Origin: Nitrospira sp.
GTDB taxonomy: Bacteria; Nitrospirota; Nitrospiria; Nitrospirales; Nitrospiraceae
DNA: 64,000 nucleotides
NCBI GenBank assembly: GCA_030653545.1
Contig: JAURZE010000025.1
Coordinates: 124,001-188,000 of the forward strand
Reading direction: 5' to 3'
Positions 37,009 through 42,277 of this stretch are shown here, in pieces; position 1 is the first letter of the stretch; each line of letters begins with the position of its first letter. The notes beneath the pieces were generated by a model. It ran no database searches. It was not told the origin of the DNA and worked only from the letters and a program-made list of their open reading frames with translations. A program made the position numbers and the translations under genes.

Positions 37009-38181
37009 TCAAACGCCGACGGGTGAGCGGTTTTCTGCCAACCACGCGAAGGCCGAGCCTGAAAGCAAGGCCATGGTTGCGCCGAATATGAAAGGAGCCG
37101 CCGGTCCGATGGAATCCCATAGCAGCCCGGCGATGAGGCTTGCAGGTAAGATGGCCAGGCCGACCACCATGTGATAGAGGCCGAACCCGGTGGCTTGCTG
37201 GTCTGCGCTGATCAAGGTGGAAAGATAGGCACGCTGCACTCCGTCTGTCAGGCCCATGTATAGACCATAGCCGATGAAAAGCGCAGCAATTTGCCAGATG
37301 TGTGTCACCAGAGCAAACCCTGCGTACACCATGGCGAACAGCGCAAATCCAGACAGAATCATCTTCTTCGGTCCAATTCGATCGGCCAGCATTCCGGCAG
37401 GCACCGACAGCAGGGCATAGGTGATGTTGAACGCAAGGTAGAGCCCTGAAATCCAGGCCGGACTCACTCCCACCTGCTCGGCCCTGAGGATCATAAATAC
37501 GTTGCTGGAATTGCCGAGGGAGAACAAGCCGATGACTAGCAGGAATTTCAGAAGACGCGGGTCGAGCCCATGAAGCGACCACTCGAGCGGCGGCCGAGTT
37601 GAGGGAGCCGGACCATCGGAATTGATGAACCAGACGATCAGTGCAACGGCTACCACGCCGGGCACGATGGACAGCCAGAAGACAAGGCGATAGTCTGCCA
37701 CCCAGACGGACAGAATGACGAGGGCCAGGGCCGGGCCTACCACTGCTCCCGCCGTATCCAGCGCCCGGTGGAAGCCGAAGGCCAGCCCCAGCCGCTCCGG
37801 CGGAGTCGAGGCCGCGATGATCGCATCGCGCGGGGCAGTCCTGATGCCCTTGCCGACGCGGTCGGTAAAACGGGCCGCTAGCACCATTCCCCATCCTGGG
37901 GCGAGCGCCAGAAGCGGACGAGAAGCGGTCGAGATCCCGTAGCCCAGCCCCATTAAGAGCTTGGTTTTACCGAAGCGATCGGCCACCACACCGGAAAACA
38001 GTTTGAGCAGGCTCGCGGCTGCTTCGGCAATGCCCTCGATGAGCCCGACAACGGATTTGCTCGCGCCTAACGATGAGGTGAGAAACAGCGGCACGAGGGG
38101 ATACACCATCTCCGAACTGACGTCCATGAAGAAGCTGACCCATCCGGCGATCCACACATTGCGCGGGATCGATCGTCGCAT
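37009..38181 (-). CDS. MFS transporter
   Basis: A 390-residue major facilitator protein with about 12 hydrophobic helices. The loop between helices 2 and 3 reads GVVADRFGKTKLLMG, the classic MFS motif A, and FTDRVGKGIRTAPRDAII follows helix 4. The closest general resemblance is to drug or metabolite:H+ transporters, but the substrate is unknown. The ATG at 38181 overlaps the universal-stress-protein stop (ATGA); the frame is open to 38205. Confidence 0.87.
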   Translation of the reverse strand: MRRSIPRNVWIAGWVSFFMDVSSEMVYPLVPLFLTSSLGASKSVVGLIEGIAEAAASLLKLFSGVVADRFGKTKLLMGLGYGISTASRPLLALAPGWGMVLAARFTDRVGKGIRTAPRDAIIAASTPPERLGLAFGFHRALDTAGAVVGPALALVILSVWVADYRLVFWLSIVPGVVAVALIVWFINSDGPAPSTRPPLEWSLHGLDPRLLKFLLVIGLFSLGNSSNVFMILRAEQVGVSPAWISGLYLAFNITYALLSVPAGMLADRIGPKKMILSGFALFAMVYAGFALVTHIWQIAALFIGYGLYMGLTDGVQRAYLSTLISADQQATGFGLYHMVVGLAILPASLIAGLLWDSIGPAAPFIFGATMALLSGSAFAWLAENRSPVGV

Positions 38182-38603
38182 CACTTCACGACCAACACCG
38201 TGCAAGGGGACAAGCGCACGAGATTCTGCGACGTACCGCCCCAGATGCGGCCGAAGATATTGGAATGTCCGGTAAAGCCGACGACCAGGAGATCGAAGCT
38301 CCCGTCTTTGGCAAACTTCGTGATGGCCTCCACGGGATGCCCGGGCACGACGTGCGACGCGAGTGTGACTCCCTGGGCGGCCGCCGCCGCTTCCGCATCC
38401 TGCGTGACGCGGTGGAAGAATACCCGGGCCTCCTCCTTCGCTTCGTCCAGTTCGCCCATCAGCGCGCCGTAGCGAGGCAAGCGCTCCTCGATGGAAATTT
38501 CATGCAACTCTGCGCCATCGCGCTTCGCGAGAGCCAGCGCCGTCTGCAGCGCGTTCTTCGCACCGTCGGAACCGTCATTGCCTACCAGAATTTTTCGAAA
38601 CAT
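38181..38603 (-). CDS. Universal stress protein, UspA family
   Basis: A 140-residue UspA-domain protein: start MFRKILVGNDGSDGAK, then ALALAKRDGAELHEI, DLLVVGFTGHSN and GGTSQNLVRLSPCTVLVVK at the end. The G-x2-G-x9-G(S/T) ATP-binding pattern is present in the last third. The ATG at 38603 has GGAGG seven bases ahead; the open frame continues to 38726 over an intergenic area. It lies between the antiporter and the MFS gene, in one minus-strand operon. Confidence 0.9.
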   Translation of the reverse strand: MFRKILVGNDGSDGAKNALQTALALAKRDGAELHEISIEERLPRYGALMGELDEAKEEARVFFHRVTQDAEAAAAAQGVTLASHVVPGHPVEAITKFAKDGSFDLLVVGFTGHSNIFGRIWGGTSQNLVRLSPCTVLVVK

Positions 38604-38605
38604 GC

Positions 38606-39814
38606 TCAGGCCTCCGTCGATGATGGTGAACTGTGACGTGAGGGGGGTGCACCCGACGTCGTCTGTCCTTCCGGTCTCTGTTCCGGCCATCGTTCTTCGG
38701 CAGGCTTGCCGCCCGGGTCGAACCATCGCTCGGCGATCAGTGTGGGGATAATCGCCGTCAGGATCACCACGGTCACCAGTGTCGCGTATTGCTCGCGGGT
38801 GATCAGATGATGTTCGAGTCCGAATAGCGACGAAATCGTCCCGAAGGTCAGGCCTGTTGCCATCAGCAGCGTGGTGTACAGGCCTTCCTTCGGGTGGAAT
38901 CGAAACAGGCGAGTGAGCGGCCAGACACTGACGAGTTTGGCGGCCGTATTGACGGCGAAGAACAGGCCGATCAACGCCGTGGTCACGAGTACGGCCTTAA
39001 GACTGACCAGTACGCCGGCCTTGAGAAAATAGAAGGGGGTCAAAATCGTCAGGGCGATGGTCCGCAACCGGTGTGCTAGGCCCTTGTTGGCGAGAAAGAT
39101 CGGGGCCAGCACGAGGCCGACGAGATAGGCGGGGAGGACCGCCTCGCTTTGTGCTGCGCTCGCCAGGGCGCCGAGGGCGAAGAGAATCAGCAGCACGAAC
39201 TTGAGCTCCGGCTCACTGATCCGCTTGCCGACCCGGTTGAAAAACCAGCGGGTGATGCCGGGCAATTGCCAGAGGGTGACCGCCGTCACCGCCAGAAACG
39301 CCACCATCCACCAGTCGTATCGGGCGAAGAGGAGGCCAAGCGCGACGACTGATCCCAGATCGGTCACAAAACAGGCGGCGAGAATGATCTTGCCCAATTC
39401 GAGTTCATTGTGCCCACGCTCGACGAGCACGGTATAGACCACGGCAACGGAGGTGGCGCAGAGGGCGATGCCCGCGATCTGCGAGGCTTCCAGCGACCAC
39501 CCGGCCCCCCAATAGGCCACGGCCATCACGCTGAGGCAGGGCACCAGAAACGAGGCGAGGCCGATCCCGAGTGTCTCCTTCCACTTATTCTTCATGACAT
39601 CAAGGTCGATCTCGGCGCCGGCGAGGAACGTCAGGACGACGCTGCCGAATCCGGCCAGCGACAGGATCCATGAGGTCGGCTGAATGCCGAATACGTTGCC
39701 GCCGGCAATGCCGACGCAGATTTCCACCAGCGCGACGGAGACGCCGATGCGCACGGAGATGAGTGACGCCAGCAAGGCCATCCCCATCCAAACGGCTGCG
39801 GTCTCCCAGGTCAT
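38606..39814 (-). CDS. Cation:proton antiporter (CPA2/Kef-like)
   Basis: A 402-residue membrane protein with about 12 helices, of the monovalent cation:proton antiporter type. Visible marks are FLAGAEIDLD, IALCATSVAVVYTVL, LAACFVTDLGSVVALGL and the later helix LPAYLVGLVLAPIF. There is no C-terminal TrkA-N domain, only a 40-residue Pro/Ser-rich tail. It probably exchanges Na+ or K+ for H+. The UspA gene follows 3 bases downstream, which suggests stress regulation, and an ABC-like gene lies upstream in the same direction. Confidence 0.85.
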   Translation of the reverse strand: MTWETAAVWMGMALLASLISVRIGVSVALVEICVGIAGGNVFGIQPTSWILSLAGFGSVVLTFLAGAEIDLDVMKNKWKETLGIGLASFLVPCLSVMAVAYWGAGWSLEASQIAGIALCATSVAVVYTVLVERGHNELELGKIILAACFVTDLGSVVALGLLFARYDWWMVAFLAVTAVTLWQLPGITRWFFNRVGKRISEPELKFVLLILFALGALASAAQSEAVLPAYLVGLVLAPIFLANKGLAHRLRTIALTILTPFYFLKAGVLVSLKAVLVTTALIGLFFAVNTAAKLVSVWPLTRLFRFHPKEGLYTTLLMATGLTFGTISSLFGLEHHLITREQYATLVTVVILTAIIPTLIAERWFDPGGKPAEERWPEQRPEGQTTSGAPPSRHSSPSSTEA

Positions 39815-39834: not shown

Positions 39835-41517
39835 TTACGCGACCGTCACGCGGCGGTCGACATAGGTGGCAAACGTCGGATCGTTGGTGACGAAGATGAC
39901 CGACCAGGGTTCGTCCTTGGAGCAGAGCCGGCGCAAAATCGTTTCGCGTAGCGTGGGAATCATATTGTGCAGGGTGCCGTCGATGATCAGGACATGCGGC
40001 CGGATCACAATGGCGCGGGCGAGCAGAAGGCGCAGCGTTTGGCTCAACGTGAACTGATCGCGGTGGCCCGTCACCTGCGTGGCCAGGCCGTCGGGAAAGT
40101 GATCGATCTCGTCATCCAGCTCCACGAAATGGAGCGCCCACAGAATATCGTCATGGGAGATGGCAGGGCGGCCCAGCGTCAGATTGTCCTCAATCGTCCC
40201 TTCGAGCAACGTGGGCTGTGAGTCGAGCATCAAGCCGCGATAGGGGTCAATCGACTCCAGGCTCACCTCGACCAGATTCATATCGTTATAACGCACCACG
40301 CCGCCGGTGGGCGGGAGCAGGCCGGCTAGGACCTTGGCCACGGCAGTTTTCTGCACATTGGACTGGCAGAGCAGAGCGATCTTTTCCCCGGCGACGACGT
40401 CCAGATCGAGATGCTCGAACAGCGGGGTCGAGTTCGGATGGGCGAAGGAAAGATTGCGTGCGGCGATCGAGACCCCCTCCAGCCCGAAGTGTCCCACGGG
40501 GACGATGGCTTTGGCGCCGTGCGTATCCTGGGGGAGTGAAAAAAACGCATTCATCTCGCGGAACGAGACGAAGGCGAAAAACATGTGGACCATGCGGCGC
40601 GCCAGGGTGTCCATGTTCAGGAGCAGCTGTCCCGCCAGCAGTTCCGCTGCGGCGAACTGGCCTACTGTGAGCTGGCCGGTTGAAACGAGCATGCCGGCCG
40701 TGGCGATCATGCCGGTGTGGCCGACGACTTGCCAGAGTGCCGCCGCCTTATACTGGCGGCCGGTCAGTAGGTCGGAGCGGCGTTGCCGCACGCGGGCATA
40801 GGCCTTCGTCAACGCATCGGTTTTCTGCATGAGGTAGGGGCTATGTCCGGCGGCGCGCAGGTGCGGGAGATTGGCGGCGATATTCTGCATCCAGTGGTAG
40901 ATCTCATAGTTCAGCCGCGACATTTCGAGTGTGATCAAGAAGCCGCCCCGCCCGAACAAGGTGAGCAGGACGACGAAACCGGTGACCAGGGTGACGTTGT
41001 AGAGCAGAAAATAGGGGTGGAACAAGACCAGCATGGTCATGCCGATGCTTCCGACGACGGCGACGTTGAAGAGATCCGCCACCATGGCGACCAGGGCGCG
41101 GGTCAGCAGATCGGCTTCGGAAAAACGATGCGCATGTTGCGGGAGAAAGGACTCTTCCCGAAGCCGCGGCAGAGTCTCAGTAAAGGCGATGGCAATGCGG
41201 GTGTAGATGCGTTGTTGCAAGGTTTCCACCGCCCGTGCCTGCAAGATGCGGAAGGCGGCCGCACCCGTGAGGGCGCACCCTACGACAAGCGCCAAGGTGA
41301 AGATCATGGAGGGCTGTACGGCGAAGGAAAAAGTGCTGACCAGTTCCTGCACGGCAATCGGGACGCACAATAGGAACATCCCGATGGCCACGGCATAGGA
41401 GGCGATGATGCCGAGCATCTTGCGCTCAAGCCGGATCAGCAACCCCAATTGAGTCAGGATGTCGTCGAGGATGTTGCGGAGTTGATACTGAGGAAATGCG
41501 GGATCCGGTGCGGCCAT
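39835..41517 (-). CDS. ABC exporter-like protein with degenerate nucleotide-binding domain
   Basis: A 560-residue half-transporter: six hydrophobic helices in residues 30-310 and an ABC-type domain in 345-560. The catalytic motifs are eroded. Walker A reads CQSNVQKT (384-391; Lys390 and Thr391 kept, all Gly lost), the signature reads LSQTL (491-495) instead of LSGGQ, Walker B Asp513 is followed by Gly instead of catalytic Glu, and the H-loop position is Asn545. The Q-loop Q434 remains in SQPTLLEGTIEDNL. No frameshift or stop is seen, so the gene is kept as an open frame. It is probably non-hydrolytic or the silent half of a heterodimer. The partner is not in this window. Confidence 0.82.
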   Translation of the reverse strand: MAAPDPAFPQYQLRNILDDILTQLGLLIRLERKMLGIIASYAVAIGMFLLCVPIAVQELVSTFSFAVQPSMIFTLALVVGCALTGAAAFRILQARAVETLQQRIYTRIAIAFTETLPRLREESFLPQHAHRFSEADLLTRALVAMVADLFNVAVVGSIGMTMLVLFHPYFLLYNVTLVTGFVVLLTLFGRGGFLITLEMSRLNYEIYHWMQNIAANLPHLRAAGHSPYLMQKTDALTKAYARVRQRRSDLLTGRQYKAAALWQVVGHTGMIATAGMLVSTGQLTVGQFAAAELLAGQLLLNMDTLARRMVHMFFAFVSFREMNAFFSLPQDTHGAKAIVPVGHFGLEGVSIAARNLSFAHPNSTPLFEHLDLDVVAGEKIALLCQSNVQKTAVAKVLAGLLPPTGGVVRYNDMNLVEVSLESIDPYRGLMLDSQPTLLEGTIEDNLTLGRPAISHDDILWALHFVELDDEIDHFPDGLATQVTGHRDQFTLSQTLRLLLARAIVIRPHVLIIDGTLHNMIPTLRETILRRLCSKDEPWSVIFVTNDPTFATYVDRRVTVA

Positions 41518-41663: not shown

Positions 41664-42212
41664 TCACTTCCCGGCGACGACCGTAAAACGCATCGTACCG
41701 ATCAGACTCATCTCGCTCACCTGTTCGCCGGCGTGAATTTCGACTTTGTAGCGGCCCGGTGTCCACTGTTCTTTCGGCGGGAGCAGTTTCAAATACCCGC
41801 TCTCATCTTCCAGGGCCATGTGCATGGCGTCTTCGCTGACGATCGTGTCCGGTTCGATGCCCGCAATCCCTTCGGGAAAGCATCGGCCGAATACTTTGAA
41901 GGCTTGATAGTGCTGATGGAGTGCGAAGACGATAAAGATGGCCGGCGCATCGGCGACAAATCGCTCGGTCGGTTTGACCGGGACAATTTCGTGGGTCTGG
42001 CGAAAGCCCAGTTCCTCTTCAAACCCCTCGGCCATGGTGATGGAGCGGAACATTCCCTGCGGGGGCGCGTCGAAGTCGTACGGTTTGGCATCTTCCGGAC
42101 GATTCTGAAACTCAGGTATAGGGAGATTCTTTGTGATCGGCAGTTCCCCGGCCCAGATGGAGGCTGGCCCAGCGATCAGGGCAGCAAGGACAATGAAAAG
42201 GAGCCGGCTCAT
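41664..42212 (-). CDS. Exported hypothetical protein
   Basis: A 182-residue protein with a clear signal peptide (RLLFIVLAALIAGPASIWAG). I do not recognise the family. The mature part is acidic with a beta-rich look; GRCFPEGIAGIEPDTIVS and LKLLPPKEQWTPGRYKVEIHAG suggest an Ig-like or ligand-binding beta fold near the end. Both Phe-rich and Met-rich stretches are present, but no Cys pair. I placed the start at the ATG at 42212, the first that leads into the signal peptide; the frame is open to 42251. It is separate from the ABC-like gene by 146 bases. Confidence 0.65.
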   Translation of the reverse strand: MSRLLFIVLAALIAGPASIWAGELPITKNLPIPEFQNRPEDAKPYDFDAPPQGMFRSITMAEGFEEELGFRQTHEIVPVKPTERFVADAPAIFIVFALHQHYQAFKVFGRCFPEGIAGIEPDTIVSEDAMHMALEDESGYLKLLPPKEQWTPGRYKVEIHAGEQVSEMSLIGTMRFTVVAGK

Positions 42213-42277
42213 ATGCAAGGTCTGGTACACCCCCTGCGGAGTGAGAGTCAAGGGGAACCCGCGCAGAGCACGGGTGC

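Follow-up and report, generated by a model that had tools for sequence, protein, structure and literature searches.

The window analysed here, a 64,000-nucleotide stretch of a Nitrospira contig, carries on its minus strand an uninterrupted reading frame with an ATG start (39835..41517, -) that encodes a 560-aa protein; the ORF listing, Pfam, a family alignment and a tree identify it as a putative pseudo-ABC exporter gene, a paralogue in a group that we call clade W. The AlphaFold model, predicted from the window protein and 57 family sequences (mean pLDDT 82.8), displays the architecture expected of an ABC exporter, in which a membrane domain of six helices is joined to an NBD: six long membrane helices (residues ~15-330; 40528..41475, -), with a fold match to HlyB and TmrAB, and a complete NBD fold (residues ~342-560; 39838..40494, -), recognized by Pfam as ABC_tran at 33 bits and fitting, when taken alone, the ComA NBD at 2.0 Å over 213 residues. 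In the Pfam scan of the window protein, the membrane domain gave no match to PF00664. The top structural matches of the model, TmrAB, HlyB (8dck) and PCAT1 among them, reached Z 26-27 over ~500 residues with a high rmsd that probably stems from differing domain positions, and a profile search of PDB sequences matched ComA, PrtD and HlyB to the window protein over the full length. The best NCBIfam models of the family proteins were of the NHLM, LssB, CydC and PrtD types, all below cut-off; the window protein scored 126.8 against a cut-off of 693 for LssB and 130.7 against 329 for CydC, and did not reach the subfamily cut-off for a type I secretion ABC subunit. The two family proteins of the window genome scored only 36-41 bits with ABC_tran, compared to 77-132 bits for 38 other ABC ATPase domains, implying that the motif loss described below is not due to chance.

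Upstream of the pseudo-ABC gene lies a gene for a conserved secreted protein without a Pfam match (41664..42251, -), which holds this position in nearly all clade-W loci and has an invariant core; its structure prediction (pLDDT 62) yielded only a C-terminal beta-sandwich. Behind the pseudo-ABC gene, at a distance of 20 bases, is a CPA2-type Na/H antiporter gene (38606..39814, -; Pfam), followed by a gene for a UspA-family protein (38181..38726, - for the ORF as listed; the Pfam domain begins near residue 42). The antiporter and UspA genes follow the pseudo-ABC gene, completely or in part, in the window and in a few relatives, and they stand in front of it at a basal locus (L178), so the link to these genes that had been proposed for the window is real and old. 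They are absent, however, beside the gene in two clade-W members, N. moscoviensis (L066, 78%) and N. defluvii (L076, 69%), and in an 88% orthologue. Since the linkage is so often lost, we rejected the antiporter and UspA genes as a fixed functional unit with the pseudo-ABC gene.

Motif registers were read from alignments with canonical exporters of the window's genome, and the Q-loop was placed with MAFFT, phmmer and hhalign. Where GxxGxGKT is expected for Walker A, the window protein has CQSNVQKT (384-391; 40345..40368, -), with the glycines gone and the Lys retained. After the Walker B Asp513 comes Gly514, not Glu, within a family motif DGxxH (513-517; 39967..39981, -); the H-switch His is replaced by Asn545 in the sequence T-N-D-P (544-547; 39877..39888, -); and the A-loop Tyr is replaced by His. 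The sequence-only reading had made the same calls for Walker A, Walker B and the H-loop, and these were borne out, as were its statements that the membrane domain is kept and that there is no frameshift. Two of its calls needed correction. The signature, read as LSQTL, was placed two residues out of register, as LSGGQ aligns to FTLSQ (489-493; 40039..40053, -), although both glycines are lost either way. The Q-loop, thought to be kept, has Asp432-Ser433 (40219..40224, -) replacing Pro-Gln, with Ser433 at the Gln position in all three alignments. A one-residue shift would align this position with Gln434, but family members have Q, H, R or L at residue 434, the 88% orthologue having Leu; because this adjacent Gln varies, retention of the Q-loop is unsupported. 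None of the intact Walker A, signature, Walker B Glu and H-switch that mark an ABC exporter is present in the window protein.

The family was searched among relatives and throughout the phylum Nitrospirota with an HMM built here, which gave members at least 280 bits compared to 87 bits for a canonical exporter; genome counts are rows of the phylum search. The window protein belongs to the family by its HMM score, by DGxxH and by [NT]D at the switch. Of the 110 genomes sampled from Nitrospiraceae, the window's family, 100 contain members (52/54 of the window's genus; 48/56 of the others), as do 11 genomes from a sister family (f3), while other families of the phylum gave matches only near 1e-31, which is the level of canonical exporters. 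In a scan of species genomes, the best 80 matches were all from Nitrospirota except for two records, labelled Acidimicrobiia and Nitrosospira, that we take to be misbinned or misnamed. A contig labelled Acidimicrobiia (L089) bears a family cluster and is probably a misbinned Nitrospirota contig.

Motif counts were made on the 142 of 145 distinct family sequences that cover the NBD. Canonical ATPase motifs were present in 0/142, so that orthologues with the same lost motifs do occur in Nitrospirota. The catalytic Glu is Gly in 142/142, the D-loop Ser is His in 141/142, the Q-loop Gln is Ser in 138/142, and the switch His is Asn in 105 and Thr in 35. The Walker A Lys is retained in 126 sequences (Arg in 15), the Walker A Thr/Ser in most, and the Walker B Asp in 118; almost the whole family has lost the Q-loop Gln, the signature glycines and the Walker A glycines, apart from the third of these, which 23 sequences keep. 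As aligned, the whole family lacks residues required for ATP hydrolysis. The old catalytic positions appear split into an eroded set (Walker A and signature glycines) and a rebuilt set (D432-S433, G514, H517, D546): G514, H517 and D546 are invariant in the family alignment and D432/S433 highly conserved, whereas the Walker A glycine positions are variable. Pairwise dN/dS between the window gene and eight orthologues was 0.04-0.15 for the whole gene and 0.03-0.21 for the NBD, indicating, as far as sequence comparison goes, that the family is under purifying selection and that the window gene is not decaying. The lost motifs shared among orthologues and the dN/dS of 0.04-0.15 lend strong support to the earlier proposal of a pseudo-ATPase.

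We then placed the family members in a FastTree tree, in which support was 100 for the window clade (W; 19 members), 78 for clade A and 43, a weak value, for clade B as a whole, and counted gene contexts at loci flanked by 3 kb on either side, scoring HlyD and OEP within 5.5 kb. The pseudo-ABC gene has an HlyD adaptor and between one and three TolC-like OEP proteins beside it in 75 of 85 loci outside the window clade (clade A: 51/51; sister family: 4/4; clade B: 20/30), compared to 0 of 15 window-clade loci with enough flank, the window copy included. Thus the HlyD and TolC-like partners expected alongside a type I secretion ABC subunit accompany every clade-A gene counted but not the window copy. 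The best NCBIfam models were type_I_hlyD for the cluster adaptor and type_I_sec_TolC for the OEP, both below cut-off. The window genome itself holds a clade-A paralogue (L042), located 82 kb off on the same contig among mostly housekeeping genes, with its own HlyD and OEP, which might also serve the window copy. The window clade retains 78 of the 95 residues that are near-invariant in HlyD-linked members, and 31 of 35 within the pseudo-NBD. At the level of sequence, the ancestral setting of the family is a type-I-secretion-like cluster that joins a pseudo-ABC to an HlyD adaptor and one or more TolC-like outer-membrane proteins; the sole 'ABC' of this cluster is, by its predicted residues, catalytically inert. 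The window copy is a paralogue that has moved away from this setting and in which the remodelled pseudo-NBD is still present. We also observed three consecutive TolC-like OEP paralogues with one HlyD and one pseudo-ABC gene at five loci (L049, L051, L055, L057, L061).

A second departure from the HlyD/OEP context was seen in clade B, where nine of the ten loci without HlyD/OEP have a histidine kinase and a sigma54-type regulator and the tenth is the antiporter/UspA locus L178. Within the kinase-linked branch, a two-TM PAS histidine kinase and an NtrC-type regulator lie directly behind the pseudo-ABC gene in 10/10 loci, one broken copy counted (L107, L108, L176, L100, L105, L111, L177, L180, L046, L045), suggesting a possible pseudo-transporter sensor module. 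A sigma54 promoter at the clusters, as a target of the NtrC-type regulator, was considered and dropped, as only scattered one-mismatch sites at inconsistent positions were found. The suggestion that the window protein is a regulator gains some support from this sister branch.

The reading that we lean towards, with a little more belief than doubt, is that the window protein is a non-catalytic type-I ABC exporter half derived from a pseudo-type-I-secretion system, and that such proteins would act as a platform in the clusters and as a sensor or partner when relocated. According to published work on PrtD (PMC8277102), the ABC subunit must hydrolyse ATP for type I secretion to proceed, so a homologue that is inert could not go through the known cycle. 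The HlyB-HlyD complex comprises three HlyB dimers and six HlyD (PMC11026475), implying that ABC dimers contribute to the structure of such assemblies as well. The pseudo-ABC would dimerise in the membrane as exporters do, without ATP-driven pumping; in the clusters it would be an inner-membrane platform holding or gating the HlyD/TolC conduit, and relocated copies (the window clade and the kinase-linked clade) would have been co-opted as sensors in the membrane or as regulatory partners, with signals passed on by changes in dimer conformation, possibly through a ligand at the rebuilt site formed by DS, DGxxH and [NT]DP. For the window copy itself we infer a role by analogy with its relatives, as HlyD and TolC are not nearby. 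A further proposal, which we hold to be less likely than not, is that Nitrospiraceae possess a tripartite envelope conduit of the HlyD/TolC type with an ancient pseudo-ABC as its inner-membrane subunit, which works without an ATPase of its own and from which sensor-like pseudo-transporters, the window protein among them, split off; the conduit may operate passively, by gating or on energy from some other source.

A different explanation is that the pseudo-ABC is the silent half of a heterodimer, paired in trans with a canonical half-exporter (e.g., MsbA-like) that supplies ATP hydrolysis. Exporters with one degenerate site, in which the degenerate half is structural, are common (PMC7756269), and six other exporters, all canonical, are available in the window genome; for five of these that were scored, the best model was MsbA-like or related, and none reached the type-I-secretion cut-off. 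However, the family has lost both the Walker side (Walker A, Glu, His) and the signature side, which would leave both composite sites incomplete in a pair with a canonical half. Furthermore, no ORF with intact ABC motifs was found within 8 kb of 118 family genes, a search with a thin control in that only a single such ORF occurred across all loci scanned, and the adjacent clade-A/clade-B pairs present in several genomes are dead in both members. We therefore rejected a catalytic partner gene next door, see no support for the suggested silent partner of a catalytic subunit and regard pairing in trans as quite unlikely. Clade-A/clade-B tandems within one HlyD/OEP cluster (L174, L175, L085, L087, L088, L091) are candidate dead/dead heterodimers. 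In many Nitrospira contigs a canonical exporter (e.g., L052 16656-18389) often lies ~10-55 kb from the pseudo-ABC cluster, probably reflecting chromosomal synteny.

It also appears unlikely that the family binds ATP or another nucleotide without hydrolysis, as an allosteric switch or energy sensor: the retained Walker A Lys (or Arg), Thr/Ser and Walker B Asp would suit such a role, but the near family-wide loss of Walker A glycines, signature glycines and Q-loop Gln does not. That the pseudo-NBD is a re-evolved enzyme or a metal or ligand site built from DS, DGxxH and [NT]DP would fit the near-invariance of these residues at the old catalytic positions, which could equally reflect dimer packing, and we hold this to be very improbable. 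Recent decay of a dying exporter gene, towards which in-frame stops in two relatives (L078 and L098, both metagenome assemblies) might point, was rejected on the family-wide conservation, with identical replacements across sampled genera of two families, and on the low dN/dS; we give it practically no credence.

Type I secretion is taught as ATP-driven through its ABC subunit. A dead ABC subunit conserved lineage-wide with HlyD and TolC-like partners makes the function of the scaffold alone testable, and the family shows pseudo-transporters appearing in signalling contexts. Nitrospira, which are difficult to manipulate, are key nitrite oxidisers. Our literature search of open-licence papers found no description of such a pseudo-ABC/HlyD/TolC system in Nitrospira.

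Among known systems, the modules of BceAB with a kinase resemble the family by analogy only, in that one pseudo-ABC branch is operon-linked to a two-TM histidine kinase and a regulator; BceAB has a different transporter fold and an active ATPase, and the window copy has no adjoining kinase. The SecA_DEAD-linked type-I-like modules of Planctomycetes and others (PMC4452313) likewise have HlyD/OEP without an active ABC subunit, but they combine the absence of an ABC protein with a SecA-like ATPase, whereas the Nitrospira clusters have a pseudo-ABC, and no SecA-like ATPase was present among the L042 neighbours scanned with Pfam; we rejected identity with these modules because the gene content differs. 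TM287/288, TmrAB, CydDC and TAP share the exporter fold and motifs off consensus, but their partner has a working site (PMC7756269), whereas the pseudo-ABC family is motif-less throughout and no working partner was found. Also among the close systems are the type I secretion ABC subunits (HlyB, PrtD and LssB, with ComA/PCAT1 and the NHLM bacteriocin exporters): the pseudo-ABC differs from these in lacking the ATPase motifs and an N-terminal peptidase(-like) domain and in scoring under every NCBIfam cut-off (<131 bits vs. 329-853), yet it matches them full-length in sequence and in fold, and relatives of the window protein are co-encoded with HlyD- and TolC-like proteins.
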